A DNA stretch of 64,000 nucleotides from Axinella damicornis (taxonomy: Eukaryota; Porifera; Demospongiae; Axinellida; Axinellidae), in contig OZ007514.1 of NCBI GenBank assembly GCA_963931865.1, positions 12,581,928 to 12,645,927 of the forward strand. Direction: 5' to 3'. A program made the position numbers and the translations under genes. Shown piece after piece: positions 4,952 through 30,184 of this stretch; the stretch's first letter is position 1; every line of letters starts with the position of its first letter. The notes beneath the pieces were generated by a model. That model was not told the origin of the DNA. It did no database searches and saw only the letters and a list, made by a program, of their open reading frames with translations.

Positions 4952-5621
4952 TTAATGTTTTTATAGCTACTTGTAATATATTTTAGAACCTGCAACAGAG
5001 ACAATTCTTTAACATTTCAGACAGAGAAATCTAGTAGCCGCACAAATCCAAGTGGCAATCACACTCCTGGTAGCTAGAGTGAAATTCGCTGGTAGAGCAA
5101 ACCCACGTCATGACTCGGGTCTTGGGTACTTGAGCAGAATCTGATTACACCCACCAATTCATACGTACTTGAGAGCTTCAGCTAGGTTTACATGTACGTG
5201 TCAAGTGACATTCATACTGCCAATGAGTTAACAAAAGTCGAGTTGAAGCAAGCAACAGGAAGACAATAGCATTCACAACACTACCACCACAGTGAGCTTC
5301 AGCACACAAGCAGCAGTGCATGATGGTGATCACAACGGTGTAATCAGTCTCCTATAGTAGCCCTTCCAAGACTGATGCTTGCTCTTGCTCGAGTAACCTT
5401 ATATATACAGTGAGTAAAGTAGGGGGGAGGGTGCCGAACAGTGACTGCCTTGCTGAGCTCGACTACTAGGTCAATAATGCATAGTAGGTAGGAGTAGTCA
5501 GAATCTGCCAAAGTTCGTGACCGAAATGCAATAATTTTTTACAAAACATTTCGACCTGGGTAGGTCTTTCTCAAGGTGTACCATATATACAGCATACATA
5601 ATGGAAAATCCTGCAACTGAC

Positions 5622-5705
5622 CTCAAATTCTGCAGGAGTTGGTTCACCTTCAGAGAATCTGCCAGCATGCCAGTTCCACTGTCTGTTATGCCATCACCAT
5701 CAAGA
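5622..5705 (-). CDS. Gene 1 LRR exon 9
   Basis: 84 bp, acceptor CTGTATAG. Reads LDGDGITDSGTGML...NQLLQNL. It is outside the tandem units but close in sequence, so it may be the source or a diverged edge copy. Confidence 0.8.
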
Positions 5706-5819
5706 CTATACAGGAGATGAAAATATGTAGCTACGATTATTGCTAACTATATATGCATTAATGAAGAACGCCCCTTGGTGTGCATTATCTCTGACATGTA
5801 TGAGGAGTCAGCAGCTGAC

Positions 5820-5903
5820 CTCAAATTCTGCAGTGACTGGTTCACCTTCAGAGCATCTGCCAGCATGCCAGCTCCACTGTCTTTTATCGCATTACCATCA
5901 AGA
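5820..5903 (-). CDS. Gene 1 LRR exon 8
   Basis: 84 bp. Reads LDGNAIKDSGAGML...NQSLQNL. The tandem arrangement ends just past this exon. Confidence 0.82.
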
Positions 5904-6009
5904 CTGTAAAGGAGATAAAATCACCACAATTCGACAAGCATCAAATGAAGGACGCTCATGGCATGTGTACAAATGGGACACACCAAGTACATATAGTTCA
6001 ACAACTGAC

Positions 6010-6093
6010 CTCAACTTCTGCAGTGACTGGTTCACCTTTAGAGCATCGGCCAGCATGCCAGCTCCTTTGTCTGTTATGCTATTACCATCAAGA
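6010..6093 (-). CDS. Gene 1 LRR exon 7
   Basis: 84 bp. Reads LDGNSITDKGAGML...NQSLQKL. Belongs to the third complete tandem unit, counting in the direction of transcription. Confidence 0.82.
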
Positions 6094-6965
6094 CTGTAAA
6101 GATAAAATCACCACAAACTCAACAAGCATCAAATGAAGGACGCCCGTGCACGAATGGGACACACCAAGTACATACATATATTATAGTGCTCCCAGCAAAG
6201 AGAGTAGATATTCAGAATTTTGATTTTGGAGGTTACAACCAGTTTTTCGCACTCAAATCAGCATAAAACCACCTGAGAAACCCTTTGGACTGATTTCAAA
6301 GATCCCATTTAAAATCAATAGAAAAGCCAGGGGTCAAAGGTCAGCAACATCAAAATGTTTAATAAAAACAGTCCAGAAGCTTGCTGTTCAAGTTTGTTCC
6401 AAGCAGTGGGACATGATGCTGATGTATCAAGTTACTGGACGGAAAGACAAAAAACAGCTCCATCTCCAGATCTATATGACATAATTATTATGAGCACAGG
6501 ACTTGTACCACTGTACTGCTGAGAAGCTGCACATTCCAGTGATTTCTGCATCATGGACATCCATACTAAAAACACGGTGAAATTCACAAAGAGGGTGAGA
6601 CGTGGTCAACATTCCAATGACACCCCTCAGTGCCTGAAGCAGCTATAACACCAAAAATCAGGTGCGCAGCAGGATCTTGGGGCTTTACCAGGCTGCAGAA
6701 ATCACTCCCATTTCACTGGCATGAAACCGGAATACTTGTATCTAAATCCCATACAAGCAGAGGGTGGTTATGAGCCATAACTCCCTCCCTCAGGGTACTT
6801 GTAGGAAAATTATGGGTCATAACTCCCTTGTGATAACTACGAACCAATTAATGAAGCCCATATACGACTTGTTACTACAGCACCCTGACTGGGGTGAAAA
6901 GCGCTGATGGCCTGGCATGAAAGGTATACACCAATTAAGCGATACTGAAGTTTGCAGCAACTGAC

Positions 6966-7049
6966 CTCAAATTCTGCAGTGAATGGTTCACCTTCAGAGC
7001 ATCTGCCAGCATGCCAGCTCCACTGTCTGTTATCGCATTACCATCAAGA
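6966..7049 (-). CDS. Gene 1 LRR exon 6
   Basis: 84 bp. Reads LDGNAITDSGAGML...NHSLQNL. Compared with the copies at 8131 and 5820 it has Thr for Lys and His for Gln, so the units are diverging in coding positions. Confidence 0.82.
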
Positions 7050-7161
7050 CTGTAAACGAGGTAAAATCACCACAATTCAACAAGCATCAAGGACGCTCAT
7101 GGCATGTGTACAAATGGCACACACCAAGTACATATACCCGGTAGCTAGTTCAACAACTGAC

Positions 7162-7245
7162 CTCAACTTCTGCAGTGACTGGTTCACCTTTAGAGCATCG
7201 GCCAGCATGCCAGCTCCTTTGTCTGTTATGCCATTACCATCAAGA
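7162..7245 (-). CDS. Gene 1 LRR exon 5
   Basis: 84 bp. Reads LDGNGITDKGAGML...NQSLQKL. It differs from its tandem counterparts at 8321 and 6010 by Gly for Ser in the GNxI position, a variable solvent-side residue of the repeat. Confidence 0.82.
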
Positions 7246-8130
7246 CTGTAAAGGAGATAAAATCACCACAAACTATACAATTCAACAAGCATCAAATGAA
7301 GGACGCCCGTGCACGAATGGGACACACCAAGTACATACATATATTATAGTGCTCCCAGCAAAGAGAGTAGATATTCAGAAATTTTGATTTTGGAGGTTAC
7401 AACCAGTTTTTCACACTCAAATCAGCATAAAACCACCTGAGAAACCCTTTGGACTGATTTCAAAGATCCCTCAATAGAAAAGCCAGGGGTCAAAGGTCAA
7501 CAACATCAAAATGTTTAATAAACTCAATAGAATCAGTCCAGAAGTTTGCTGTTCAAGTTTGTTCCAGGCAGTGGGACATGATGCTGATGTATCAAGTTAC
7601 TGGACGGAAAGACAAAAAACAGCTCCATCTCCAGATCTATATGACATAATTATTATGAGCACAGGACTTGTACCACTGTACTGCTGAGAAGCTGCACATT
7701 CCAGTGATTTCTGCATCATGGACATCCATACTAAAAACACGGTGAAATTCACAAAGAGGGTGAGACGTGGTCAACATTCCAATGACACCCCTCAGTGTCT
7801 GAAGCAGCTATAACACCAAAAATCAGGTGCGCAGCAGGATCTTGGGGCTTTACCAGGCTGCAGAAATCACTCCCATTTCACTGGCATGAAACCGGAATAC
7901 TTGTATCTAAATCCCATACAAGCAGAGGGTGGTTATGAGCCATAACTCCCTCCCTCAGGGTACTTGTAGGAAAATTATGGGTCATAACTCCCTTGTGATA
8001 ACTACGAACCAATTAATGAAGCCCATATACGACTTGTTACTACAGCACCCTGACTGGGGTGAAAAGCGCTGATGGCCTGGCATGAAAGGTATACACCAAT
8101 TAAGCGATACTGAAGTTTGCAGCAACTGAC

Positions 8131-8214
8131 CTCAAATTCTGCAGTGACTGGTTCACCTTCAGAGCATCTGCCAGCATGCCAGCTCCACTGTCTTTTATCG
8201 CATTACCATCAAGA
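8131..8214 (-). CDS. Gene 1 LRR exon 4
   Basis: 84 bp. Reads LDGNAIKDSGAGML...NQSLQNL, the same peptide as exon 5820-5903. It is paired with the exon at 8321 across an intron of about 106 bp. Confidence 0.82.
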
Positions 8215-8320
8215 CTGTAAAGGAGATAAAATCACCACAATTCGACAAGCATCAAATGAAGGACGCTCATGGCATGTGTACAAATGGGACACACCAAGTA
8301 CATATAGTTCAACAACTGAC

Positions 8321-8404
8321 CTCAACTTCTGCAGTGACTGGTTCACCTTTAGAGCATCGGCCAGCATGCCAGCTCCTTTGTCTGTTATGCTATTACCATC
8401 AAGA
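8321..8404 (-). CDS. Gene 1 LRR exon 3
   Basis: 84 bp, phase 2-2, GTCAGT donor. Reads LDGNSITDKGAGML...NQSLQKL. Its sequence is identical to the exon at 6010-6093, which shows how recent the unit duplication is. Confidence 0.82.
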
Positions 8405-9284
8405 CTGTAAAGATAAAATCACCACAAACTCAACAAGCATCAAATGAAGGACGCCCGTGCACGAATGGGACACACCAAGTACATACATATATTATAGTGC
8501 TCCCAGCAAAGAGAGTAGATATTCAGAAATTTGATTTTGGAGGTTACAACCAGTTTTTCACACTCAAATCAGCATAAAACCACCTGAGAAACCCTTTGGA
8601 CTGATTTCAAAGATCCCATTTAAATCAATAGAAAGGCCAGGGGTCAAAGGTCAGCAACATCAAAATGTTTAATAAACTCAATAGAATCAGTCCAGAAGTT
8701 TGCTGTTCAAGTTTGTTCCAGGCAGTGGGACATGATGCTGATGTATCAAGTTACTGGACGGAAAGACAAAAAACAGCTCCATCTCCAGATCTATATGACA
8801 TAATTATTATGAGCACAGGACTTGTACCACTGTGCTGCTGAGAAGCTGCACATTCCAGTGATTTCTGCATCATGGACATCCATACTAAAAACACGGTGAA
8901 ATTCACAAAGAGGGTGAGACGTGGTCAACATTCCAATGACACCCCTCAGTGCCTGAAGCAGCTATAACACCAAAAATCAGGCGCGCAGCAGGATCTTGGG
9001 GCTTTACCAGGCTGCAGAAATCACTCCCATTTCACTGGCATGAAACCGGAATACTTGTATCTAAATCCCATACAAGCAGAGGGTGGTTATGAGCCATAAC
9101 TCCCTCCCTCAGGGTACTTGTAGGGAAATTATGGGTCATAACTCCCTTGTGATAACTACGAACCAATTAATGAAGCCCATATACGACTTGTTACTACAGC
9201 ACCCTGACTGGGGTGAAAAGCGCTGATGGCCTGGCATGAAAGGTATACACCAATTAAGCGATACTGAAGTTTGCAGCAACTGAC

Positions 9285-9368
9285 CTCAAATTCTGCAGTG
9301 ACTGGTTCACCTTCAGAGCATCTGCCAGCATGCCAGCTCCAGTGTCTGTTATGCTATTACCATCAAGA
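9285..9368 (-). CDS. Gene 1 LRR exon 2
   Basis: 84 bp, acceptor TTGTATAG, donor GTCAGT. Reads LDGNSITDTGAGML...NQSLQNL, the ribonuclease-inhibitor-type LRR consensus of this locus. It is the partial fourth copy of the 1.15 kb tandem unit. Confidence 0.82.
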
Positions 9369-9671: not shown

Positions 9672-9755
9672 TGGAGGCTTTTCAGTGAGTGAGAAACTCT
9701 GAGAGATATGGCAAGTGCATGAGTTCCTTCCTCAGATATCTTGGTGCTTGTCAAC
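9672..9755 (-). CDS. Gene 1 LRR exon 1
   Basis: 84 bp, acceptor TTTAATATAG, donor GTAAGT, phase 2-2. Reads LTSTKISEEGTHAL...SHSLKSL. It is the first and most diverged repeat, directly after NACHT, as is common for capping repeats. Confidence 0.75.
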
Positions 9756-9880
9756 CTATATTAAACACAACAGCAGTACTGATACAGCTTAAACTTTTAT
9801 AATAAACATGCAAAGGGAACTTCTGTGGTTTGAGAACAAGGGTACATTGGCAGTCAAAAGACACATAGATAGACGCATAC

Positions 9881-11387
9881 CTCAGTTCAATAAGTCTGCT
9901 GCCATCAGTCACAAGACAGGCTGCCAGGTGTCTAGAAATCAACTTCAGTGCTGAAGTTCCCAGAACACAGTTAGATAGAGACACAGTTAGATAGGAGACT
10001 GGAGTCAATGTACTGTGAGGATCCTGCGTGAACTTCAAACAGTGGAGGATGCTGTGAATGTCACCAGTTGTTACAGCTGTGTCACTGACTGCAGCTGTCA
10101 TGGAGGATAGCAGTTCCACCTCTTCTGGGGAGGCTTCCCCTGCTTCATAGAGACAGTTTGATAGTCTCAAGATACTATCTTCATAGTGTATCTTTAAATG
10201 TTTTTTCACAAGTTTCGGAAGCTTATCCGAGCCACGTCCAGTCAAAAACTGATAGAAATAATTAGAGATGTTTTGCTTTGCACTATAAAGCTTAGTTGTA
10301 GCAGTGCATGCCAGGAGTGCACGAAGAAAGAACCTCATGAGTGGCATCGGAAAGTGGTGGTCTTTCTGGTCATCAAATGGAATGTGCTGGGCAGATTCAA
10401 CTACGAAAGGTCTAACAACAGCAAGGAAGTCATCCTCTGCAACAGCTACTCTGACAGTTCCCAACAGAGTATCCTGCAGTGGCAGTGATTGAGATGAAAT
10501 GCTGAGCTGGTTAGCCACAAACACTGATAGCAGTTCAGTCCATGTGGTGGGAAACTGTGGAATTGGATGGTTCAAAAACACATCCAAGATCACACTCAAA
10601 TAAATGGGGAACGAAGACAGAGTTTCAATCTTCGGATTATCAGCAAGGTAGAATAGGAACTCGCTGGCATCCTCTGAGGTTAAGTGTTGTGTAATCTGCC
10701 TTGCAATCTGTGAACTGTTAAGTCCAAGGATCTCATAATGAGTACAGTTTCTACTGCAATCCAGTGGGTGTGTGTACTGTGAGCTGCTGGTGGTAATAAC
10801 TACAGATGACCTTTTTAGCACAGAGCCTGTCAACAACCCATAGAAAAATCCTCCTTCCTCAATGACAGTCTGACGGTTAAACCCATCCAGAATAAAGAGT
10901 ACTTTGTTACCTTCGTCCTCTTCAATCCAATCACAAAGTTCATTGATTGATGACAAGTGTACAAAACATTGCCTAACCAAATCATATAAACTTTTGCATT
11001 TAGGATATTCCCAGATGTTTATATTTAGCAACAGAGCAAAGCTGCGGAGTGCGTACTGCTTGGCCCAGTAGACGCTCACTTTATTCATTAGGTGTGTCTT
11101 TCCAGAGGCTGGGGGACCTTTGATGAGAAAATATCTGTTCTTTCTTTCCGATATGCTATTCATGAACGACTTTAGGGTAACTGCCTTCATGTTCGAGGGA
11201 TATTGCTCTGCCATTTCATAATGAGAAGTGTAGTCCAGGTTTTGGAGAAGCTCGGTATCCTGTATGACTCCAAGGTTATGCGTGAACTCCATAACATTAC
11301 AATGAGGAGTGCCATTGTCTCCATTGTCCGTCTGCTCCCTTTGTATGCATCTTTCTCTCAGTGAACTTTGTACCAAGAGCATCACAC
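9881..11387 (-). CDS. Gene 1 exon 6: NACHT NTPase domain
   Basis: 1507 bp, acceptor ATAATTGCAG, donor GTATGC, phase 1 in and 2 out. A typical NACHT P-loop, LIKGPPASGKTHL, lies at about 11090-11127. The Walker B region reads VLFILDGFNR, with Asn-Arg where NACHT proteins usually keep acidic residues after the DG. The sensor-1 segment reads VVITTSSS, lacking the usual Arg. Downstream are the FPIYLSVILDVFL winged-helix-like segment and a long helical linker to the LRRs. The last codons (RLIELR) are already an LRR end and join in phase 2. NACHT hydrolyses ATP or GTP during oligomerisation; the altered acidic and Arg positions suggest weak or absent hydrolysis (inference). Confidence 0.88.
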
Positions 11388-11482: not shown

Positions 11483-13405
11483 CTGGTAGAGACTGAATAC
11501 TCAACAGTAGTTCTTTGGCATCATCAACGTGTCCGTGTGTCAGCAAGCACTCAACAAGCCTCTCATAGGTAGCAGTTTTCTCATCAAACTTCTTCCAGCA
11601 CTGAAGAGCCAGATATTTCTGTTCACATTCATCTCCGGGATATATTTCCTCCAGATCTTCCAGATCCCATTCACTGATTCCAAGGTATGGAGCCAAGTCT
11701 TTCCAGCTTCCCATCTTCTTGGCAAATTCCTTCAAGGACTGATCGGAACATGTTTCTCGGAGCTTGCCTACGACAGTGCCTTTAATGAGGTCAGTCAAGT
11801 GACTGAACTCCTCTTTACTCATTCGCTCCATATTACTTCCAGGAATAAAGTGCTCCAGTCCAAAGTTCTTGGTCCGAGCCCTGTCTTCTTCACTAGCAGG
11901 TACGACAGTCTGTGGAAGTTCATTGACCAGCTCCTGAATATCATCTGCAACCATTTCATAGTCAAGCTCTAAACTTCGGACACCGACACCGATGGTCAGG
12001 TCTTCCTCACAGAGCTCATTGAAGATCCCACTGATACTCACTGGAATTAGAAATGTAAACTGATGTGTGTTGAACCCTCCTTCCCAGTAGGCATAGGTGA
12101 TGAAGTCCTGGTCAATGCCTGTAGCCTTCTCCACTGCCTCTTTCACCTGCTGTATGTCACCCAATGTCCATTCATTTCCACCACCATCAACAGTTACTCG
12201 CAGCTTCTTAACTCCACTCAATTCCAAAACATGTTTTTCGGAAATAGGATCTGGGAGAGTGGACAGTCGAGTGTGAGGGGGGAACCTAGCTGTGTATGCC
12301 TGGACTGCAGGTATTAGCTTGCTGTCAAATGCACCAACAACTTTCTGAAGAATTCCCCAGTTCAGAAAGTTCATGACCTGAGGATTCAAAGCTGTTAACA
12401 CTTCGGAGATTGATTTAGCTCTTTTCAGGAGGCTGGAGTCAACGTAATGAGACTCAGGATATAAGATGTGGTTGAAACTCAGTAGGAATTCCTTCAACTT
12501 ACTAGTTTCCACAGATTGCTCAAGTGAAGTTCCTACTTGTAATGTGAGAGTCTGGAATTCTGAGTTCCAGTTGACTGCCTGAGCAGAATCCTGAGTTATG
12601 GGGACTCGTTTCACTCCAGAAGTGGTGTACGTTGATATATCAGTGTTGGACACCGGCTGGGGCGGTTGTAGGTCGATAACTTGATTGTTCAATTCAATTC
12701 TGAGGATGCCATGATCAGCTAGGTCCCTATGTCCAGCTTCATCTAGATTACTGATGATATTAACCACAGTTTCTGGGATCAGAAAAGTGAATATAACACT
12801 ACCTGGCGTCTGCTTAGCATAGACGATCACTATTCGGTCAATTCCTGTGTTCCTTTCAATGGTTTGTTGAACTCTTTCAACATCCAGCAAAGTGGTGTTG
12901 TCAACATTAGCATCTCCACCATACACAACATTAATCCTTTGGGTTCCAGGGCATGCTTCAATCTCTTTATCTGAAAGTGGTTCACGCATTCGTTTGAGAG
13001 GTTTCTTACGAGGGAAGTTCTCTTCATAACATTGTACAAGAGATTTTGATTGATCATCTCCACATCTGTTCACAATCCTTCTCAGCAGGTGAGTGTGTGT
13101 GAAATTGATGTACTGCGGATAGAGTGCTTCCAGAATTTCTCCAGGAGTGTTGCATTGCTCATAGATTTTGATATCAATGTAGCGCTGGTGTGTTCGAGGG
13201 TGAGAAAGGAATTTCAAAAACCGTTTCAAAGTGCACACATCAGCTGATTCATCGATTAGTTCAATTATTTTGACAAACATGTCAGCAAATTCAGTTGGCG
13301 GATCCCATTCCTCATCGTCACTAATGGACTGTGTGTCCACGGGGGAATTGTCGCGTTCTTCAGCTGGTGAATGTGATGCCATTGCTTGGGGTAATACAGT
13401 TGGAC
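11483..13405 (-). CDS. Gene 1 exon 5: two copies of an unnamed module plus Death domain
   Basis: 1923 bp open exon, acceptor CATAATCTCAG (13406-13407 is the AG), donor GTAGGT, phase 1 in and out. Residues counted from the ATG at 13382. Module copy 1 spans about 32-235 and copy 2 about 280-475. Both carry YPQ/NPQ followed by NF, a GxLxxxV helix, then a segment ending FTFLIP, and an L-E-L-x strand. No published family name comes to mind, although similar modules occur in sponge predicted proteins (recollection). Residues about 548-630 form a Death domain: LKEFAKKMGSWKDLAPYLGI, DLEDLEE, ALQCWKKF, TYERLVECLL. An acidic low-complexity N-terminus precedes. Met at 13382 could also be an alternative start; the acceptor-to-Met stretch (GPTVLPQA) is open. 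Confidence 0.8.
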
Positions 13406-13559: not shown

Positions 13560-13645
13560 GCAATGCCAAGAGGGAATCAAATTCACACTAGGATTTAAAC
13601 CTACAGTCAGATGCTCTTACTGCTAAGCCACTGGGCCCACCCACA
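13560..13645 (-). repeat. tRNA-like SINE head
   Basis: On the minus strand an A-box-like TGGCTTAGCAG (13620-13630) is followed by a B-box-like GGTTTAAATCC (13591-13601). It lies beside the outer end of minisatellite 1, and a similar head lies beside the outer end of minisatellite 2. Bases 13406-13559 hold no supported feature. Confidence 0.55.
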
Positions 13646-13720
13646 CAAGCTGTGTGATACATGTCCAGGATTGCCACGGACTATCTCAAGCTGTCCTACA
13701 TATACAAACCCATAGCCCCA

Positions 13721-14470
13721 GGTCCCAGATGTCCCTGGGATATCCTGGGATGTCCTGCCCTGTCCCACCTAGGACATTGCCCAGAGTCCCAGGTCCCAGA
13801 GATATCCTGGGATATCCCGGGATGTCCTATCCTGTCCCACCTAGGACATTGCCCAGAGTCCCAGGTCCCAGATGTCCCTGGGATATCCTGGGATATCCCG
13901 GGATGTCCTATCCTGTCCCACCTAGGACATTGCCCAGAGTCCCAGGTCCCAGATGTCCCTGGGATATCCTGGGATATCCCGGGATGTCCTATCCTGTCCC
14001 ACCTAGGACATTGCCCAGAGTCCCAGGTCCCAGATGTCCCTGGGATATCCTGGGATATCCCGGGATGTCCTATCCTGTCCCACCTAGGACATTGCCCAGA
14101 GTCCCAGGTCCCATGTGTCCCTGGGATATCCTGGGATATCCCGGGATGTCCTGTCCTGTCCCACCTATAGGACATTGCCCAGAGTCCCAGGTCCCAGATG
14201 TCCCTGGGATATCCTGGGATATCCTGGGATGTCCTGTCCTGTCCCACCTAGGACATTGCCCAGAGTCCCAGGTCCCAGATGTCCCTGGGATATCCTGGGA
14301 TATCCCGGGATGTCCTATCCTGTCCCACCTAGGACATTGCCCACAGTCCCAGGTCCCAGATGTCCCTGGGATATCCGGGGATGTCCCGGGATGTCCTATC
14401 CTGTCCCACCTACGTACGTAGGACATTGCCCAGAGTCCCAGGTCCCAGATGTCCCTGGGATATCTTGGGA
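13721..14470. repeat. Minisatellite 1, 81-bp period
   Basis: Nine or so units marked by CACCTAGGACATTGCCCAGA; successive starts near 13839, 13920, 14001 and 14082 are 81 bases apart, the first spacing is 72. Units are rich in GGGATATCC and GGGATGTCC half-palindromes. A period divisible by three keeps several frames open, giving long but spurious reading frames on both strands. Confidence 0.95.
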
Positions 14471-14548: not shown

Positions 14549-15160
14549 TGACGTGCATGTGGGCGGGGTCTCGTAGTGACGCTCGAGCTGGAGCTGAGCG
14601 AGCTCTCGCGCACCCACTATAATACCTCTGTCTCTGATCTGCCAGAAATAGCGAGCAAGCAGCTGAAATGCAAGAATCAGCGAGCAAGCAGCTGATACAT
14701 AAGTAACAATGAGCACTTCACAGTGATCATCTATGACCGACAACATGAGATGTAGCCAGTGACCACAGCATCATCTTGCCTGTATACGACTTGTACAGTG
14801 CTCGGGAATGTATGCTTTGGTAGTTTGCGGCTCTTATGACACAACACTATACAATGCAGATGAGGATGTACTGAAGTGTATGTCCAGCTGGGGCATCTAG
14901 TTCTCATGTGCTACATACAGGGAATGATTGAAGTTTTGGCATAAGTATTGGCTAGATACACGCATAGTTATGTTCAATTACAGCTCTAATGAGATTTACA
15001 GTAGTAATTGCAACTTATAGCTTAGTAAGCATCAAGCGCCCACCACGTATCAAGCGCCCATCCCCCTCTTCACACGAAAGTTACTGCACAGGGTTCAAAA
15101 GCAGTGTAGTAAGGGCCCACCTATCACACAATCTTGAGCAGTATTTCCAACTTACCTTAA

Positions 15161-16135
15161 GGTAGTAAACATGGGTACCGCGATCTCCGAAACCAAGTTG
15201 ATGGATAAATGGGCAGCATCAAAGCGTACACAAGTTTCAGCAATACTTTGCATCAAACTGCTCCCTCTGCTTGAAAATGCCCTAAAACTCAATTTTAAGG
15301 CCCTCTACGAAACTGAAAATTTGGACCCTCTCCAAGGCCCCACCCACACTCTGACCCCATCATCAATACACACACAAAACAGGCCCCAAAACTACGGATG
15401 GATTTACCACCTGCTCTCCTCACTTGCAGGCTACAGCCCAAAACTCACTGCCACCCTCAAAAACAAAGGTTTGGCTACCCTAGGCTTTCAAAAAAAATTC
15501 CACGCACACCAACTAAAACCGACTCAAGCCAAGGCCAGTTTCCAAAAGGTCAACCTACCCCCTGCAAAAATAGGGATGCTTTTCCACGTTCACCTCTCGG
15601 TTACCGAGTTTTGGCCACACATCTACTCCCTCTCACCAGCCCAGTCCAGCTACCAAACCAGCCAAATTCGCCCTAACACGAAAATGGGCGGGGCCTGTAA
15701 TGCCGAAAGGTCAACTCTCTAGAGTACCTTGGCCAGGGAGCTGTCGGAGGCTGTTCACTTTCCAGCCTGTTCTTCGGCCACTTCAGCAGACCCACAAACA
15801 TTCCTGCTCACTCCACCTAGCTATTCACACACAGATAGCCCATCGCCACATTCAATCAGCTAGAATAGCTTCTTACTTAAAAAAAAAAAAAGAAAAAAAA
15901 AAGAGTGTTCAAACAAATCTTCAAAGTACCGCACGGCCACATCAGAGTACCGATTTGAAACTCGAAAGGGCCGCTAGCCGCATCAAAGAAAGAAGCCCCC
16001 CTTGTTTATTCCGGTTGCCGCCATGGGAAAACGTAAACAGATGAATAACTCTAAATAACCGTATGCAAGTGACGTCATCTCATTAATTATTCATAAGCAA
16101 AATTGCGCGATTTCGCCGATGCCGTGCTTCCTACC
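15161..16135. mobile_element. TTAA-bordered non-autonomous element, copy 1
   Basis: 975 bp flanked on both sides by TTAA (15157-15160, 16136-16139). Ends are imperfect inverted repeats: GGTAGTAAACATGGGTACCG versus GGTAGGAAGCACGGCATCGG on the other strand. TTAA target duplication is the signature of the piggyBac group, but the ends lack the usual CCC. An open frame of 183 codons from 15171 encodes a basic peptide (MGTAISETKLMDKWAASK...) with no recognised domain. An A-rich stretch lies near 15879-15902. Confidence 0.75.
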
Positions 16136-16830: not shown

Positions 16831-16906
16831 TACAGAGTTAGGCCAAACTCCAGTGTTAGGATTTGTCATTGCACTAGCCTAATTAAAGCCTTCAGATGGC
16901 CCTTAA

Positions 16907-17893
16907 GGTAGTAAACATGGGTACCGCGATCTCCGAAACCAAGTTGATGGATAAATGGGCAGCATCAAAGCGTACACAAGTTTCAGCAATACTTTGCATC
17001 AAACTGCTCCCTCTGCTTGAAAATGCCCTAAAACTCAATTTTAAGGCCCTCTACGAAACTGAAAATTTGGACCCTCTCCAAGGCCCCACCCACACTCTGA
17101 CCCCATCATCAATACACACACAAAACAGGCCCCAAAACTACGGATGGATTTACCACCTGCTCTCCTCACTTGCAGGCTACAGCCCAAAACTCACTGCCAC
17201 CCTCAAAAACAGAGGTTTGGCTACCCTAGGCTTTCAAAAAAAATTCCACGCACACCAACTAAAACCGACTCCAGCCAAGGCCAGTTTCCAAAAGGTCAAC
17301 CTACCCCCTGCAAAACTAGGGATGCTTTTCCACGTTCACCTCTCGGTTACCGAGTTTTGGCCACACATCTACTCCCTCTCACCAGCCCAGTCCAGCTACC
17401 AAACCAGCCAAATTCGCCCTAACACGAAATTGGGCGGGGCCTGTAATGCCGAAAGGTCAACTCTCTAGAGTACCTTGGCCAGGGAGCTGTCGGAGGCTGT
17501 TCACTTTCCAGCCTGTTCTTCGGCCACTTCAGCAGACCCACAAACATTCCTGCTCACTCCACCTAGCTATTCACACACAGATAGCCCATCGCCACATTCA
17601 ATCAGCTAGAATAGCTTCTTACTTAAAAAAAAAAAAAAGAAGAAAAAAAAAAAAAAAAAAGAGTGTTCAAACAAATCTTCAAAGTACCGCACGGCCACAT
17701 CAGAGTACCGATTTGAAACTCGAAAGGGCCGCTAGCCGCATCAAAGAGAGAAGCCCCCCTTGTTTATTCCGGTTGCCGCCATGGGAAAACGTAAACAGAT
17801 GAATAACTCTAAATAACCGTATGCAAGTGACGTCATCTCATTAATTATTCATGAGCAAAATTGCGCGATTTCGCCGATGCCGTGCTTCCTACC
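16907..17893. mobile_element. TTAA-bordered non-autonomous element, copy 2
   Basis: 987 bp, same orientation and almost the same sequence as copy 1, again flanked by TTAA (16903-16906 and 17894-17897). Main difference is a longer A-rich run (17626-17660). The open frame from 16896 differs from copy 1 at only a few residues (K/R, Q/P, I/L, M/L), which are single-base changes. Confidence 0.78.
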
Positions 17894-19859: not shown

Positions 19860-21850
19860 GGATATCATGGACACATCTGGGACCTGGCTACCACTCCGGG
19901 ACCTTACACTGCCTCCATGACTGGGATGTCCCTGTATATCCTAGACCTGGGACGCTGGGACCTAGCTTACATTACCTCCATGGCTGGGACATCCCAGTAA
20001 ATCCCAGTAAATCCCAGGACCTGGGACTAGCTTACACTACCTCCACGGCTAGGACATCCCAGGATGTCCCGGTGTATCCCAGGACATCTTGGACCTGGGA
20101 CCCTGGGACCTATCTTACACTGCCTCCATGGCTAGGACATCCCAGGATGTCCCGGTATGTCCCAGGACATCTTGGACCTGGGACCCTGGGACCTATCTTA
20201 CACTGCCTCCATGGCTAGGACATCCCAGGATGTCCCGGTATGTCCCAGGACATCTTGGACCTGGGACCCTGGGACCTATCTTACACTGCCTCCATGGCTA
20301 GGACATCCCAGAATGTCCCGGTATATCCCAGGACATCTTGGACCTGGGACCTTGGGACCTAGCTTACACTGCCTCCATGGCTAGGACATCCCAGGATGTC
20401 CCGGTATATCCTAGGACATCTTGGACCTGGGACCTTGGGACTTAGCTTATACTACCCCATTGGCTGGGACATCTTGGACCTGGGACCCTGGGACCCTACA
20501 CTGCCTCCATGGCTAGGACATCCCAGGATGTCCCGGTGTATCCCAGGACATCTTGGACCTGGGACCCTGGGACCTATCTTACACTGCCTTCATGGCTAGG
20601 ACATCCCAGGATGTCCCGGTGTATCCCAGGACATCTTGGACCTGGGACCCTGGGACCTAGCTTACACTGCCTCCATGGCTAGGACATCCCAGGATGTCCC
20701 GGTATGTCCCAGGACATCTTGGACCTGGGACCCTGGGACCTATCTTACACTGCCTCCATGGCTAGGACATCCCAGGATGTCCCGGTGTATCCCAGGACAT
20801 CTTGGACCTGGGACCCTGGGACCTAGCTTACACTGCCTCCATGGCTAGGACATCCCAGGATGTCCCGGTATGTCCCAGGACATCTTGGACCTGGGACCCT
20901 GGGACCTATCTTACACTGCCTCCATGGCTAGGACATCCCAGGATGTCCCGGTGTATCCCAGGACATCTTGGACCTGGGACCCTGGGACCTAGCTTACACT
21001 GCCTCCATGGCTAGGACATCCCAGGATGTCCCGGTATGTCCCAGGACATCTTGGACCTGGGACCCTGGGACCTATCTTACACTGCCTCCATGGCTAGGAC
21101 ATCCCAGGATGTCCCGGTGTATCCCAGGACATCTTGGACCTGGGACCCTGGGACCTAGCTTACACTGCCTCCATGGCTAGGACATCCCAGGATGTCCCGG
21201 TATGTCCCAGGACATCTTGGACCTGGGACCCTGGGACCTATCTTACACTGCCTCCATGGCTAGGACATCCCAGGATGTCCCGGTGTATCCCAGGACATCT
21301 TGGACCTGGGACCCTGGGACCTAGCTTACACTGCCTCCATGGCTAGGACATCCAGGATGTCCCGGTATATTCCAGGACATCTTGGACCTGGGACCCTGGG
21401 ACCTAGCTTACACTGCCTTCATGGCTAGGACAACCCAGGATGTCCCGGTATATCCCAGGACATCTTGGACCTGGGACCCTGGGACCCTACACTGCCTCCA
21501 TGGGTGGGACATCCCAGGATGTTCCTGTATATCCTAGGACATCTTGGACCTGGGACCCTGGGACCTAGCTTACACTCACCCCATGGCTAGGACATCCCAG
21601 GATGTCCCTGTATATCCTAGGACATCTTGGACCTGGGACCTTGGGACTTAGCTTATACTGCCCCATTGGCTGGGACATCCCAGGATGTCCCAGGATGTCC
21701 CGGTATATCCCAGGACATCTTGGACCTGGGACCCTGGGACCCTACATTGCCTCCATGGGTGGGACATCCCAGGATGTCCCAGGTATCCTGGGAAAGCTGG
21801 GATGTCAGACCGGGTATACCTCCATTGTTGGGATAACCCAGGGTATCCCG
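19860..21850. repeat. Minisatellite 2, 83-bp period with 166-bp higher-order repeat
   Basis: Unit landmark CCATGGCTAGGACATCCCAG recurs every 83 bases (20126, 20209, 20292). From about 20636 to 21346 two alternating unit variants (CCTATCTTAC/CCTAGCTTAC and GGTATGTCCC/GGTGTATCCC) form a 166-bp dimer repeated at least four times. Read on the opposite strand the unit matches minisatellite 1 (GGACATCTTGGACCTGGGAC), so the arrays are inverted relative to each other. Confidence 0.94.
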
Positions 21851-22040
21851 GGAGATCCCAGCCATGACTTTCATATACCGAGACAGTCCGTGGCAGTCCT
21901 GGACCACCCTGAGCTGTGTACAGCAGCATTGTGTGGAGGCCACTGTGGCACAGCCAAGTTCCAACCGTCAGTTGGAATTGAGCTGAGGTCTGCATACAGT
22001 GCTGCTGTACGCAGCTTGTTTGCTGCTCCTCTGCTGTGGG

Positions 22041-22184: not shown

Positions 22185-22484
22185 CTATTTGGCCTGGAAA
22201 CTCTTCTTCCAACTTGTTGGCCACAACAGATCCTCCAATAATTTCATCGTCACTTCTCAGAGCTTGACAGAGGGTTTTGAGCGTAGGTGAAGGGTGTTCC
22301 CTACTGAGCCACCTGTTAAGCAAGTCCCTCATGAAGGCTGCGGGACAAGTGTTGTCAGGTGTACACCGAATAACAGCCACTTGTGAGGTCATTCCCAGTT
22401 GATCCGCAATTGGAATCCAATAGGGAGAAACAGGCTGAAGCAACCGCTTTAAGCTCCCAAGATCATCGAGTCTAAGTTGTGTTT
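22185..22484 (-). CDS. Gene 1 exon 4: Death-like domain
   Basis: 300 bp, acceptor TTATTAACAG, donor GTTAGT, phase 1 in and out, about 100 residues. The order of motifs fits the Death fold: LDDLGSLKRLLQPV (helix 1), YWIPIADQLGM (the usual W-x-x-hA-x-xLG), LLNRWLSREHPSPTLKTLCQ (the W and PT turn), then IIGGSVVANKLEEEF. Death domains pair homotypically in signalling complexes. The exon begins with AA, which completes GAA with the G left by the 2A exon, so the mature product after skipping would start near this domain. It lies about 8.8 kb of intron upstream of the long module exon. Confidence 0.6.
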
Positions 22485-23594
22485 CTGTTAATAAGATTGT
22501 AAACATAATGACTCAACTCTACCAGATGTCATGCATGTCCACATACAACCTATCATATGTTTATCAGGCCCCATCCGGAGCTCAACTTCATGTTGTTGAG
22601 ATCCATTATTTTGCCTAACACATCCTTTGAGAAACAGCTGGTCCACCCAAAGGACCCTGTAAAGGCTCGTGGTTTATATTGGCCAAACCGTCAAATAGAC
22701 TCTGAGTCAACAATGTTTGTGTACAATGTTTGGTTTTCTTAAGTGACACATACAAACTTGTGATCGACAATGTGGGCAGGCACTCTGATATAAACTGCTG
22801 GAGGTCTGTTGTAGTTGTACGTAGTTGTACTACCATAATGGTCAAGTGCTACTCTCTCTAAGGGCTACTTTGCAGTTATAGAATAGCTTGGAAATGCATA
22901 CAGATACATTATTCCCTGTAGATACTCCACATCATTATACAACAGAAAGATATCTAGATGAATGCAGGACATTGTGGGGTGAGAGCGATCAAGCTGCATC
23001 GGCATTTTAGCCACAGAGGAGAGAATGAAGTTGCTGAGTGTCAGGGGGGTCACACTACATGTAGTTGTAGGTGGACATTGCAGTCTAGCTGGGTCTGGCA
23101 CAACTGTTCACTTCCTGAAACCATTTGTGTGTCTTGGTAGCCATTCAATGCAGATTACCGTGTCCCTATTTTAACAATCCTGCTGACCCTGGAGTACTGA
23201 AGTTGGAACAAAACGATTCTGGTGAGTGACTCTTCCTCTGGATTGTAAAATCATATTACCCTGCATGAACTGTGTGACTTTGACACTAGTTCAGCTAGTA
23301 ACTTGGCCTCACCTTTCCAATGAGACAATAGTTTTTCAGATTAAGAAACCAGTCTTGGCAGTTGAGCACAATGTTAACAAAATTTCATGCTTGTTAGAAC
23401 TTTTAGGTATACCCTTCTATCAAGGCGGACTTCAGTCCCGCGTGTCTATGGTCTTCACTTCATTCAACATGGACCGTACAATGCTATTCATTTATGCGGG
23501 TATTAAATTATGTAGTTTAGGACATTTTTTTAATTTTTACAAACCACACTACTGGTAGCCGGTGCATCTCGCAGGTAACGTCGTACATGTCACG

Positions 23595-23838
23595 TGATGA
23601 GTGGCATTGGAAAGTGGTGGTCTTTCTGGTCTTCAATTAGGATTCAAATACGAATGGTCTAACAACAGCAAGGAAGTCATCCTTTGCAACAGCTGCTCTG
23701 ACAGTTTCCAACAGAGTATCCTGCAGTGGCTGTGATTGAGATGAAATGCTGATCGAGATGGCTTGCCACAAACATTGATACGTAGCAGTTCAGTACATGT
23801 GGTGGGAGGCTGTCGGTTCGGATGGTTCAAAAACACAT
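23595..23838 (-). pseudogene. NACHT exon fragment in the leader intron of gene 1
   Basis: About 240 bases match gene 1 exon 6 around 10331-10580: shared landmarks include GGAAAGTGGTGGTCTTTCTG, GGTCTAACAACAGCAAGGAA and GGATGGTTCAAAAACACAT. It has a deletion near its start and indels that break the frame, and lacks both the P-loop and splice context. It is a relic of a duplicated NLR, not a functional exon. Bases 22507-23594 show nothing I can support. Confidence 0.85.
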
Positions 23839-23914
23839 ACACTGTTAAACAGTTGTCCTAAACACATGGACTCAACGTGGGTGGGGCAATATGCTCGCAC
23901 TTGAATTATGCGAC

Positions 23915-24485
23915 TCATTTAACCCTTTAACTACGGAATTATTCCCCCCAAGACAACACATTTTCATGCATTCAGCTCACACCACCTTCGTAGGTGCTCC
24001 CTCCCACACCATTCGCTCCTCAGCGGCCAGACTTGATGGGGTTCACACACATGGAGAGCCCCCTCTGGCAATACCATTAATGATATTCATGACCCCACAA
24101 GCTCAGTAATTGGAGGTCAAAGGTGGATGTCAGCTGGATTCTCGCCCAGGATCTCACTCAACTTGGGCCAGATCTGACTGATGGCACATCATACACCATC
24201 AATCTGCATGTTTTCTTGAGGACCCATCTGAGGCCCTCGGTTGGGGTCTATGAATCTCATTAAAATAAAATAAAATAAAAAAGCTTGAGGGGGTGCTGCC
24301 TCCTTCACCCCTGAAAACTGAGCAAATTTCAGAGTTTTTCCCACACAGTTGTCTCTGAGCCCTCTCAGGCCCTTGAAGACACTTTTCGGACTGATGACAA
24401 GCCCTACAAGTGCATAGGGTCAAAATGACGTCTATAGGCATCAATGGAGCTTAAAGACAGCACTCCGCTATCACTGAACCTAGCT
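23915..24485. repeat. Dispersed repeat R2, copy 1
   Basis: Starts AACCCTTTAACTACGGAATT and includes ACATTTTCATGCATTCAGC and GGAGAGCCCCCTCTGGCAAT. The second copy is at 26595-27060. No terminal inverted repeats found. Confidence 0.6.
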
Positions 24486-24596
24486 GTTAATTAGACAGGT
24501 GGCAAATGATTTTCTCTGGAGGAGTTGCTTGTTGTTCAAGCAGGAATGAAACATGGACTCCTGTTGAGCCAAGTCCTGTGGCTTCAAGACTGATTA

Positions 24597-25300
24597 CACT
24601 CCTGGTAGGGGAAAAATCGTGCCGCGTAAATAACATTTGACTACTTAGGAGAATGGCCTGCAATGATTCTGACTACATTGTCATGATCGCCAGGGCCGGC
24701 GCCAGCTATTTTGGAGTGGTACGGCCACTGCCGAAGGCAGTGTATAGAGGCGCGTAGTGCCGATCAATCCGCGCGAAGCGAGGAAAAAATTTTTCACCTT
24801 CATTTTTCAGTTAGCAGAATGAGCTCTCCGTATAGCACCTTCGTGCTTTGCACTGCACTGCCACTACTTTCCGTGACTGTCCCACTCTCGACGTGGAAAG
24901 GAAATGTAAGTTGGCTGGAAAGGTAGTAGCTACATCACGAGCATCTCGTTGTTTGAAGGTTGCCGTCACGGCGCGTTAGTCCTGTCTCCATTCCGTGTGT
25001 GTTGGTCTCGTCCCTAGACCATGAAAATCGACGCGATTCGAAACCAAGACTCGTGATAACATGGAGCAGTCTGTCCTGGCCTTATGGTCGCGGCTTTGGC
25101 CGGCAGAAGCCTCAAGGAGGAAACTTTGGATGCAGCTAGCTACGCGCTCGTAAGTCAGAATCCCAGCAACGCCATTTTTCCTCCTCAAAAACCGGTGGCG
25201 CCGGCCCTGATGATCGCTACTATCCACTGTCCTCACCATACAATTTTGGTACTGAAACTCACCTTGGTGGTGGAGATACAAGCGCTTTTGTAGTGCCGTC
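24597..25300. mobile_element. Repeat TE-A, copy 2, split by the MITE
   Basis: Left end CACTCCTGGTAGGGGAAAAA; after the MITE the sequence continues with CTCACCTTGGTGGTGGAGAT and, on the minus strand, an ATGGCGGCC exon-like start near 25310. Bases 25460-26035 carry only a weak internal duplication around GCACAAAGTTCGCACAAAA (25755 and 25940). Confidence 0.5.
24691..25209. mobile_element. hAT-like MITE inserted in a TE-A copy
   Basis: TIRs CAGGGCCGGCGCCA and TGGCGCCGGCCCTG, flanked on both sides by the 8-base duplication ATGATCGC (24683-24690, 25210-25217). An 8-bp target duplication and CAG...CTG ends fit the hAT superfamily. Internal tract with CTTCGTGCTTTGCACTGC recurs at 55370 and, inverted, near 59800. 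Confidence 0.75.
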
Positions 25301-26039
25301 GGCCGCCATTGCTCGATCGCTCTGTTTGAAGTTTGTTGCCAGTATAGCTCTTATCATGGATAATATAGTACGCGAGGTGGATAGGCAACGCACGTGATGT
25401 ACGGAACTTTCCTGCTTGCAATCCGCGTTGCAGTTTACTTTGTGCTGGCAAATATCAACAGCTAAACACAACCAGGCGTTCTTACTATGTACAGGCTAGA
25501 CTACTATCATGGCCCTACTGGGAGAACGAAGACAGAAAGCAGCAGCGTGTCTGTCTGAGGCACGGGATGCTTGAATACCATACTTGGTGCTTGGCAAGGG
25601 CCCGGAAAGGCCAATTTGGAAACTTTCGACGCCTATTGAACAGCACTGGTAATACCAAGCTGGTTCTTACATAGCACACCCAGTACACCCGGTACTATGC
25701 TACAAGAATCATGCAGCTTTTAATGATAGCTCTTTCTGTTGCTGAGATTACACAGCACAAAGTTCGCACAAAACAGCGTTATTAGGGCAAAATTGCATTA
25801 TTCAGAAATTTCTGAGTTTATTGAGCGGCTCTACTAATACCTAGCAGGCTGCTACGTAGTGCACCCAGTATACCCGGTACTACTCTCTACGAATCCTGCA
25901 GCTTTTCATCAGAGCTGTTTCTGTTGCTGAGATTACCCAGCACAAAGTTCGCACAAAAGAGCCGTTACAAGGACTGACAAATAATTATCCGTGGACTATT
26001 CTGTATACTACCAACGTTTCCTATCCACCTCGCGTACTA

Positions 26040-26320
26040 TATTATCCATGCTCTTATGAAGGCCCCACAAAGATTCTGACCACACAGGTGTGATCGCTGT
26101 CGTTCACTGACACTCACATGTCGAAACTCACCGTGCTTGTGAAGTTGTGAGTGCTGTAAGTTACAAGTTCTTGTCCTCCCTTTGGACGCCATTGCCGACT
26201 CGATCGACCGACTGTGGTCCTCATGTGACAGTGCGTTAATTGTAATGAGCTGCAGCGTGTATCTTGCGTGACCAGCGAGTTGCAACCGGTTGCAACGCAG
26301 CTACCAGGAGTGTGGTTGCC
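26040..26320 (-). mobile_element. Repeat TE-A, copy 3 (partial)
   Basis: Shares GATCGCTGTCGTTCACTGAC, AAACTCACCGTGCT and the GCAACCGGTTGCAACGC tract with copy 1. The minus strand again shows ATGGCGTCC followed by a short frame ending at a GTGAGTTT donor. Confidence 0.55.
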
Positions 26321-26594
26321 CCTCGTAATAATCTTGATGCTCATCATGTCAAAGCAGTCATCAATGCTGTATCGAGGGAAGGAACAACTTGCTGCAGCAA
26401 TTTTTACACCTCTTCAAAAGGAGCTAGCTCCAGTGACGTCGATAGTATTGAAGCCAAAAATGCAAGCTAAACCATGAAGGACCAAATATTGTGCTATACT
26501 GGTTCAGTATGTCATCCTCTCAACTAGCATCCATGTATACCGGCCCATAGTAGGATTTGTAAATCGACCCACATTTGTGATGCATATGCATCTT

Positions 26595-27060
26595 ATAACC
26601 CTTTAACTATGGAATTCTTTCCACAAAGAGAGCACATTTTCATGCATTCAGCACAGACTACCTTCGTAGGTTCTCCTCTCACACATCATATGCTCCTCAG
26701 TGGCTACACTGGGGCTAGCACACATGGAGAGCCCCCTCTGGCAATACCATTAATGATAATCATGACGAACCACAAGCCCAGCAATTGGAAGTCAAAGGTG
26801 GATGTCAGCCTGATTTTGCCCAGGAACTCCCTAAACTTGGACCGGATCGGACTGCTGGCACATCGTACACCATCAACCTGCTAAGGGCTGCACCCCCTCC
26901 CCCTTGCCGACCTTGGAGGGAGGGGCGTGCCCCCCCCCCCCCCCCCCCCCCCCTTCGGGGATCCCCCCATGGTTACATTTAGTGGGGGGGGGGGGGGGGT
27001 GCACGCCGAAAACTGCCCAATTTCCTACAAACTTGCCCCTAAGCTCTCTGAAGCCTTTTA
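26595..27060. repeat. Dispersed repeat R2, copy 2, with homopolymer tracts
   Basis: Matches 23915-24485 and contains a poly-C run (about 26930-26953) and a poly-G run (about 26983-26998). A (GTAT)n microsatellite follows at 27163-27188. Bases 27190-27611 show nothing supported. Confidence 0.6.
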
Positions 27061-27611
27061 AGGTGCATACGTATATTGCGACAAATAGATCCCCCATTCA
27101 GAGCCTCGCGCTAATGCGCTCGGAAATTAGCCCAACACTCACCCATTGCTTCCTCTCATATTATGTACGTATGTATGTATGTATGTACCGGTAAATGTCA
27201 CGCTCAGGGATGTTGATAACGTTTAGGAATGTTGTGGGTTTCCTGCCGGCCAATTTGGCTTGATTTGCCACGAGGACTCGACAGTGCGAGATTTACAACC
27301 TTGAGACTCCACTACGAGCACGGAGTCAAACAATGAGCGTAGTCGACATCTCTTTATATCGCAACTTCACAATAGTTTCACGTAGCCAGAGGCTATGGTA
27401 CAAGTGAGCGGGGCTTGTAGAACTAGAGCAGCTACATGTGGGGAGCGTAATCAACCTCTTTATCTCAGCTCCATACCCTCAAACTCACACTAGATAGATT
27501 GTAGATATGATCTCGTAACCACGTGGTCAATGTCACATGTACGCATGTGGCGCACGCAAAGCATGCGGATACATATTCTTAGTAGTAGCTATGCATGATA
27601 CAAACACTCAC

Positions 27612-27768
27612 CAGGCCCTGGGTTGGGTTGAATATCACCAGATATCATCAGAAGCATTTCATTCACCAAGGTGACGTACTCCATCAGTATTATAGTGAAA
27701 ACCACTGCCCTCAAGGTCAGTTGGCAGCGGTAGAGTTTATCAGTGCAGTAATACCAAACAGTTCTCGC
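27612..27768 (-). CDS. Gene 1 exon 3: hydrophobic segment ending in a 2A-like motif
   Basis: 157 bp, acceptor TGCTGCCATCAG, donor GTGAGTG, phase 0 in and phase 1 out. The peptide runs ARTVWYYCTDKLYRC, then a hydrophobic stretch AVVFTIILMEYVTL, and ends EMLLMISGDIQPNPGP. The last nine residues match the 2A ribosome-skipping family, whose consensus is D-V/I-E-x-N-P-G-P; here the Glu is Gln. Only one base (G) follows the final Pro codon before the splice site, so the motif sits at the exon boundary. 2A-like leaders are reported on sea urchin NLR-type genes and on non-LTR retrotransposon proteins (established). Whether the Gln variant still skips is unknown. Confidence 0.6.
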
Positions 27769-27871
27769 CTGATGGCAGCAACAGAGTAACACATTACAGC
27801 ATAGCTCATACGCAACACACGACTTGAATGTACCACTCATCTTGTACTACATGTAATTGCAACTACTTGCG

Positions 27872-27904
<33 letters not shown>
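27872..27904. repeat. Poly-C tract, 33 bases
   Basis: Uninterrupted C run followed by (ACC)n. Lies in the intron between gene 1 exons 2 and 3, where it could act as a very long pyrimidine-poor or G-quadruplex-forming tract on the transcribed strand. Confidence 0.9.
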
Positions 27905-28027
27905 ACCACCACCACCACCACGACCAATAAACAAGAACGATGCATGGCCGAGTCACTTGAACAACCAAAGCGCTATAAGCAGGACGTACATTCTATTGAG
28001 GCATAGAGCAAAAAATGACTAACTCAC

Positions 28028-28193
28028 CTTTCTTATTCCATAAGTAACTATGATCCCGATGAATATTTGGGGGAGCTTCCGAAGAGGCACTCTGTCATGC
28101 CTTCTTTTGATTCGTTTTCGTTGTCCACGAATATGAGCACGATTCACAGTATGACCTGTTGCTGCCAGCCACTCATCAATGCCAGAAGGTATC
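28028..28193 (-). CDS. Gene 1 exon 2: basic linker, retroelement-like
   Basis: 166 bp bounded by acceptor CTCTCTAG and donor GTGAGT. It enters in phase 2 and leaves in phase 0. Sequence includes IDEWLAATGHTVNRAHIRGQ, then an Arg/Lys-rich tract (RKRIKRRHDR) and KLPQIFIGIIVTYGIRK. A basic tract followed by a hydrophobic patch and then a 2A-like motif resembles the N-terminal region of some non-LTR retrotransposon proteins (recollection, not searched). That suggests exaptation of a retroelement N-terminus or a shared ancestry. No known domain is seen. Confidence 0.45.
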
Positions 28194-28352
28194 CTAGAGA
28201 GACGAATGCAGATTATAGGCACAGAATACGTACGTAAATTTGCACGGGATTGATGGCTATATTTTATAAGGAATTGCATAAGTGGGGTAACCTTGTCATG
28301 CAGTTGTGAAGATGGGAGAATGGTATACAACTCAACTTGATTCTGTACATAC

Positions 28353-28615
28353 CTGGCTGTCAATAGATAGGGGTAGAAAATGCTGCTCAGACTCCTGGGT
28401 GAGTATCTTCCCTCCTCCTGTCCTGCGTCCCTCACGCCATACTGGATCACGGCCATCAGAATAGCCAGGGCTTGGAGTAGGACCAACCTCTTCCTCATCT
28501 TCAGGTCCCACACACTGACAGGCTGCATGAATACCAGCCAGATTGACAGCATTGTTAACAATACAATTCGAAGTGAAGAGACTCCTACACTATAGCTGAC
28601 TGACAGCAGGTCCAT
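28353..28615 (-). CDS. Gene 1 exon 1: hydrophobic leader, putative start
   Basis: Open from an ATG at 28615; translation starts MDLLSVSYSVGVSS. Two hydrophobic stretches, IVLLTMLSIWLVFM and LVLLQALAILMAVI, separated by a short basic stretch (KMRKR), resemble a signal-anchor or double membrane segment. The exon ends LLTA plus AG at a GTATGT donor (phase 2), and the next exon supplies G to give Arg. Upstream of the ATG is a 17-18 base poly-G run (poly-C on the coding strand) followed by CACAG, so an acceptor and a more upstream exon cannot be excluded. No family recognised. The role as leader to the 2A segment is inference from phase matching. Confidence 0.45.

Positions 28616-30139: not shown

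Positions 30140-30184
<45 letters not shown>
30140..30184. repeat. Poly-G tract, 45 bases
   Basis: Uninterrupted run of G just upstream of the Eph-like exon. Runs this long are rare and also error-prone in assembly. Confidence 0.9.

Follow-up and report, generated by a model that had tools for sequence, protein, structure and literature searches.

Structure of the receptor gene

The stretch of DNA analysed here (the window) comprises 64,000 nt of the genome of the sponge Axinella damicornis (C10:12581928-12645927) and contains, on its minus strand, an NLR-type receptor gene that begins with a predicted leader of three exons ending in a 2A-like motif. The gene model, the topology and the products were read from genomic sequence alone, and positions are given in window numbering. 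Pfam matches were accepted above 22.6 bits for Death, 26.7 bits for NACHT and 23.4 bits for LRR_6. From 5' to 3', the features of the gene are:

28529..28615, minus strand: open upstream stretch of 29 residues, hydrophobic, probably 5' untranslated region (UTR), from a TGA in other copies and the end of the alignment
28353..28528, minus strand: leader exon 1, from the Met of MQPVS, signal-peptide-like (MRKRLVLLQALAILMAV), with a second possible start, MRKR, at 28498 (sequence, copies)
28028..28193, minus strand: leader exon 2, with a basic tract (RGQRKRIKRRHDR) and a weakly hydrophobic segment (sequence, copies)
27612..27768, minus strand: leader exon 3, with a hydrophobic segment and the 2A-like end, and a phase-1 donor right after it (sequence, copies)
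27613..27639, minus strand: 2A-like core GDIQPNPGP, with Gln in place of the usual Glu (motif search)
22185..22484, minus strand: first Death exon (Pfam Death, 4.2e-7, 30.4 bits)
11483..13405, minus strand: exon 5, with two copies of a helical plus alpha-beta domain and then the second Death domain (Death, 3.1e-8, 34.1 bits)
9751..11387, minus strand: NACHT exon, delimited by the stop of the open frame, its 3' splice donor not being fixed (Pfam NACHT, 4.5e-11, 43.3 bits)
5615..9367, minus strand: eight LRR-like exons in ribonuclease-inhibitor style (by pattern)

The exons at 28615-28353, 28193-28028, 27768-27612 and 22484-22185 have GT-AG borders throughout, and their joined frame is open. The donor of the 2A exon lies one base past the final Pro of GDIQPNPGP, and the first two bases of the next exon complete a Glu; the two exons match in phase across 5.1 kb, and all three introns between the 2A exon and the NACHT exon are in phase 1. 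From the Met at 28528 through NACHT the open frame holds 1,452 residues to the first stop, the last of which possibly lie beyond the actual 3' border of the NACHT exon. Past the skip site no Met occurs until residue 32, which is already inside the Death domain, so that a coding exon is required upstream of the Death exon. The second Death domain was also called from its fold. When five exons of the LRR region were concatenated, LRR_6 was matched at 35.1 bits, but Myo1_CA scored higher (43.9), and no single stretch passed the cut-off. Of the features of a Death-class NLR, the NACHT domain and an N-terminal Death domain are called by Pfam, and the exon structure argues very strongly for a receptor of the order Death-X-X-Death-NACHT-LRR-like, with the leader at its true 5' end.

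Start and segments of the leader

The copies of the gene found elsewhere in the genome (A-D and F on C10, G on C8, with E denoting the leader of the window) help to place the start of translation. An in-frame TGA stands four codons ahead of MQPVS in all five other readable copies (A, B, C, D and F), where the window has TGG. In A, B, D and F the DNA alignment to the window ends 5-25 bases upstream of the TGA codon, and copy C carries a frame-changing indel at that upstream position. Because of the TGA in the other copies and the alignment end close to it, the hydrophobic stretch at 28615-28529 is probably 5' UTR and not protein. The most likely start codon is the Met at 28528 or that of MRKR (28498), the latter being the point at which the proteins P0001 and P0002 begin.

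The predicted leader is 156-166 residues long. Judged from simple Kyte-Doolittle means, it contains a signal-like segment at residues 15-33 (mean hydropathy 1.83) followed by the basic tract, a weak hydrophobic segment at residues 94-112 (mean 1.23) and a strong one before the 2A motif at residues 131-149 (mean 1.90), after which the leader continues for another 17 residues. No Pfam match was obtained for the leader, and no relative of it was found in a viral contig collection.

Copies of the gene and related proteins

Six further copies contain leader exons 2 and 3 together with the splice sites, and five contain exon 1, nearly all of exon 1 being hidden by an N run in copy G; wherever a copy can be read, its leader exons have the same splice sites and phases. 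Each of the seven leader loci has its own middle exon and NACHT exon downstream on the same strand. Eight near full-length copies were found of the 650-residue middle exon (76-100% identity), and eight copies of the NACHT exon (75-100%). A window-type Death exon is present in four of the six further copies, and the distance from the 2A exon to the Death exon is 2.4-5.4 kb in five of the seven leader copies. A and D lack the usual Death exon and have another Death domain (33.3 and 28.1 bits) ahead of the middle exon, in one open frame. Their introns after exon 3 differ by about 50% from those of the other copies and cannot be aligned with them; exon 3 itself is 87-97% identical to that of the window.

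Related proteins show comparable arrangements. P0003, of 256 residues on a 1,372-base contig from another source, has a different leader, with a signal-like start and two strong hydrophobic segments, followed by GDVEQNPGP, QETKLKIDDLG and a Death domain that is 67% identical to that of the window, though not called by Pfam. Here the 2A motif is joined to the Death domain without an intron, and the simplest reading is that P0003 represents a spliced RNA. P0008 and P0009 have leaders of the P0003 type (96% and 88% identical) and end three codons past the 2A motif (QGT), as an unspliced exon would; P0004 has other sequence up to ETKLK. In P0007, about 20 residues separate GDVEPNPGP from a Death domain (24.2 bits) further on in the same open frame.

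The original prediction had described, ahead of the Death domain of an NLR-type gene, a 2A-like leader that spans several exons, has Gln for the consensus Glu and ends in a donor one base after the final Pro, in phase with a Death exon 5.1 kb away. This arrangement holds in the sequence, with GT-AG borders and an open joined frame, and both P0003 and the constant arrangement at seven loci, where a middle exon and then NACHT follow the leader, agree with it. The picture of three exons with three hydrophobic segments has to be amended: the exons, the basic tract, the two later segments and the 2A end stand, and the first of the segments it had counted is probably untranslated.

Selection on the leader

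The pN/pS ratio among six close copies was 1.04 for the leader overall, 0.71 for its N-terminal part, 1.94 for exon 2 and 0.61 for the last 16 columns; the Death exon gave 0.47 (six copies) and 0.43 (four copies). In ten pairs between more distant copies (window, C1, C2, C8 and C3), the ratio of nonsynonymous to synonymous divergence (dN/dS) was 0.03-0.40 for the last 19 codons of the 2A exon and 0.44-1.14 for the rest of the exon. Between distant copies these 19 codons are thus under purifying selection, and the sequence comparison indicates that the 2A end and its tunnel context are the most strictly kept part of the leader.

2A motifs and leader families across the genome

In the 226 Mb genome the pattern D(V/I)(E/Q)xNPGP occurs at 216 sites, and the reversed pattern at one, so that the motif does not arise by chance. 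Counted by the residue at position 14 of the motif, Glu is found 209 times, Gln 7 and His 8, with reversed controls giving 3 (pattern with Glu) and 1 (pattern with Gln and His). The Gln sites are the six copies B-G and a leader-family exon at C8:358670; copy A has His. NPGP is intact in all seven close copies, and position 14 is the only variable position of the core. The window copy is one residue off the strict core (D/G/C/N)(V/I)ExNPGP, through its Gln; for this reason we class it, from its sequence, as a member of the genome's own leader family and not as a proven 2A element. Leader-family members on C1, C2 and C3, and most of those on C8, have the canonical core.

The neighbourhood of the motif was counted for 100 listed sites of the 216. 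For at least 60 of these, a Death-like exon follows on the same strand at no more than 6 kb, compared with two sites that have one upstream and two that have one on the opposite strand; with a limit of 3 kb the counts become 55, 0 and 0. The Death positions are those among the matches listed, the queries were partly exons from behind 2A leaders, and many of the 60 sites are tandem copies, so that 60 is a lower bound on linkage and not an unbiased or independent sample. At L059, one of the other 40 sites, 247 bases separate the 2A motif from a downstream Death domain (30.6 bits). Leader exon 3 has 27 homologues, 22 of which have a Death-like exon within 8 kb, or 24 with A and D; at the other three (C1:14568801, C2:13452142 and C8:381142) no Death-like exon was found downstream.

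The same or other leaders also precede receptors of other kinds. At one C3 locus examined, the same leader carries GDIESNPGP and is followed by a Death match that is weak (16.9 bits) and under the cut-off, a domain without Pfam match and ankyrin repeats (718.6 bits), and a homologue of the weak-Death exon lies downstream of all 13 C3 leaders. At one C4 locus examined, a different leader (LLLLVLSGDVETNPGP) is followed by a Death-like exon that Pfam does not match and by an open frame in which LRRs are matched, and at L019 and L023 another leader end, with GDVESNPGP, lies less than 1.5 kb from Death exons 72-73% identical to that of the window. Among 35 distinct 2A flanks in the loci examined, a phase-1 donor follows the Pro directly in 11 and one codon further on in 7, or in 18 altogether. 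Thus the leader is not peculiar to the window gene and belongs to a larger genome-wide pattern of 2A leaders, within which A and D have a different Death domain.

The motif is also found in mobile elements. L060 and L065, among the 40 listed sites lacking a Death neighbour, hold a 2A motif, a PHD finger and an endonuclease in retrotransposon frames. Eleven motifs form an array at C1:5417695-5427213 (L037-L047), mostly about 690 bases apart and again among these 40 sites; those read have a stop 7 codons after the 2A motif and lie beside protease/pol-like frames; the array looks like a tandemly repeated piece of a long terminal repeat (LTR) element. Four identical dispersed DIHSNPGP sites with His at position 14 (C1:21406561, C3:7944802, C11:4552012 and C12:8622518) probably belong to a mobile element. 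A further dispersed family, ending in LSLLLMAGDVERNPGPT (L052, L056, L063, L064 and L066), has no listed Death exon after it.

Other features of the window

Long tandem repeat arrays of the GTCCCAGG type occur at 20000-21900, in the intron before exon 5, and at 13627-14421, just upstream of exon 5. The intron between the Death exon and exon 5 also contains two near-identical open stretches of 0.9 kb on the plus strand (15138-16044 and 16887-17802), a duplicated repeat. Homopolymer tracts of C or G lie near the leader exons at 26930-26953 (24 bases), 27872-27904 (33) and 30140-30184 (45). Upstream of the gene, fourteen LRR-type exons recognised by pattern (36500-58270, minus strand) are possibly the tail of the neighbouring copy F, whose NACHT lies at C10:12672326.

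Discussion

We propose that the N-terminal signal-like segment of the leader can engage the endoplasmic reticulum (ER) and that a fraction of ribosomes would skip the Gly-Pro bond at GDIQPNPG/P, producing a free membrane or secretory leader and a cytosolic receptor that starts with Pro; without the skip, a leader-fused receptor would be kept in the membrane or the secretory path. At the moment of the choice the last hydrophobic segment would still be inside the ribosome, since it ends 17 residues from the leader end and the exit tunnel holds 30-40 residues (PMC2978324). It would therefore serve as 2A context first, and only later as a possible membrane segment. The Gln, or His, of the window clade would set another ratio than the Glu of related genes. 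Previous studies bear on this proposal. A survey of RNA virus sequences recognises a class of L-rich contexts with (A/S/C)G at the end, one assayed example of which was active (PMC12846837), and the upstream context LLMISG fits this class by reading. The same work cites E14Q mutants that kept 56% or 26% activity in earlier work, and it reports a natural His-14 that is more than 95% active in its own context (PMC12846837). We consider it likely that some skipping occurs. That the skipping is partial, with two fates for the receptor, is a somewhat less firm but still favoured reading, because the published E14Q mutants skip at 26-56%.

Several observations weigh against this reading. Gln at position 14 is rare and was only partly active in the contexts assayed elsewhere, as far as reported in PMC12846837. 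At the depth of the close copies, most of the leader shows no purifying selection. Basic residues precede the last hydrophobic segment, which makes its orientation doubtful. One base is missing from exon 2 of copy G. An eighth pair of middle and NACHT exons, on C53, has a Death exon 6.2 kb from the contig end and no leader match, and a ninth, partial relative of the middle exon at C10:10955679 (residues 28-219, 77%), with a Death exon 88% identical about 6.6 kb upstream, likewise had no leader match in the leader search of the genome.

If skipping were near-complete, the leader would simply be an additional protein made alongside an NLR that is always cytosolic, in the manner of a viral polyprotein. 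The activity of the natural His-14, the conserved distal 2A context and the long body that the leader has of its own are consistent with such a scheme, but the reduced activity of E14Q in other contexts (PMC12846837) and the finding that sequence upstream of 2A can inhibit skipping during chain translocation, through contact with the translocon (PMC2978324), speak for a lower efficiency, and we regard this alternative as unlikely. The opposite outcome, in which Gln has inactivated the motif and a single membrane-tethered NLR is made, would agree with the canonical core requiring Glu, with Gln falling below threshold in the virus survey (PMC12846837) and with the membrane-bound sponge NLRs proposed from domain calls (PMC12909245). 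However, relic-type decay of D and NPGP is not seen among the seven close copies, in which only position 14 varies (Gln in six, His in one), Gln is also present at the second leader-family locus, C8:358670, and a natural His version is active elsewhere (PMC12846837); an inactive motif thus appears quite improbable.

The leader could also be a separate gene or a relic, with no splice to the window's own Death exon, as the repeats in the 5.1 kb intron and the frameshift in exon 2 of copy G might suggest; the phase match, the same order in seven of seven leader copies, the 2.4-5.4 kb between 2A and Death exon in five of them and the joined form in P0003 make this very improbable. Another possible origin is a fragment of a non-LTR retrotransposon, given that L060 and L065 of the same genome hold 2A, PHD and endonuclease in one frame. 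An element of this type with its own endonuclease downstream was a refuting case named in the original prediction. In the window no endonuclease or reverse transcriptase was found by Pfam in the joined frame after the 2A motif, where Death and NACHT follow instead; moreover, the leader is split by introns, is without a Pfam match, has no relative among the viral contigs searched and goes together with the receptor copies, so that such an origin is hardly credible.

A known precedent exists in the NLR leaders of the sea urchin Strongylocentrotus purpuratus (SpNLR2A; Roulston et al. 2016, PMC4981915), in which a 2A-like motif and a signal-like hydrophobic leader precede Death-NACHT-LRR receptors with two predicted fates. 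There, 85 of 241 NLRs carry such sequences, and an N-terminal 2A skips at about 80% and switches between cytosolic and secretory fate (PMC4981915). The sea urchin sequences described comprise 26 residues at the extreme N terminus with D(V/I)ExNPGP, whereas those of the sponge have 156-166 residues in three exons with Gln or His and, unlike SpNLR2A as described, their family also stands ahead of a Death-ankyrin gene; the sponge case looks like a modular, multi-exon variant. The 2A/StopGo sequences of RNA viruses (Li et al. 2026, PMC12846837) share the D(V/I)xxNPGP core and an L-rich hexapeptide ending in SG, but in the sponge the core Glu is replaced and the motif belongs to a host receptor gene, with leader exons of its own and a phase-1 donor at its end. 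Non-LTR retrotransposons with PHD and endonuclease, present here as L060 and L065, also have 2A near the N terminus; they differ in holding 2A and endonuclease in one unbroken frame with no Death domain after it. In the sponge Dysidea avara, the NLRD and putative membrane-bound NLRs resemble the window gene in Death, NACHT, LRR-like repeats, near-identical neighbours and, in some models, membrane segments (PMC12909245). Membrane-bound candidates are reported there and no skipping signal is mentioned in the available part of that report; the hydrophobic part of such models may be a skippable leader.

A broader scheme can be put forward only tentatively, and we hold it to be rather doubtful. Leader exons that end in 2A and have phase-1 donors would form a cassette shuffled among Death-domain receptors (NACHT-LRR, ankyrin and other), so that a single mRNA yields both a receptor and a leader released as a free membrane protein; position 14 (Glu, Gln or His), together with translocon contact, would set the tethered share, and skipping would possibly respond to the state of the ER.

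Cellular use of 2A has been called rare (PMC12846837), whereas about 200 copies of the motif, some of them in mobile elements, are present in this one animal genome. A single message may thus yield both products, leader protein and receptor, at a ratio that can be tuned, and the Glu, Gln and His versions within one leader family are a natural series for the tuning of efficiency. If the proposal is true, NLRs scored as membrane-bound from domain calls may be split in translation, and skipping would be a routine start of innate immune receptor genes in this lineage.

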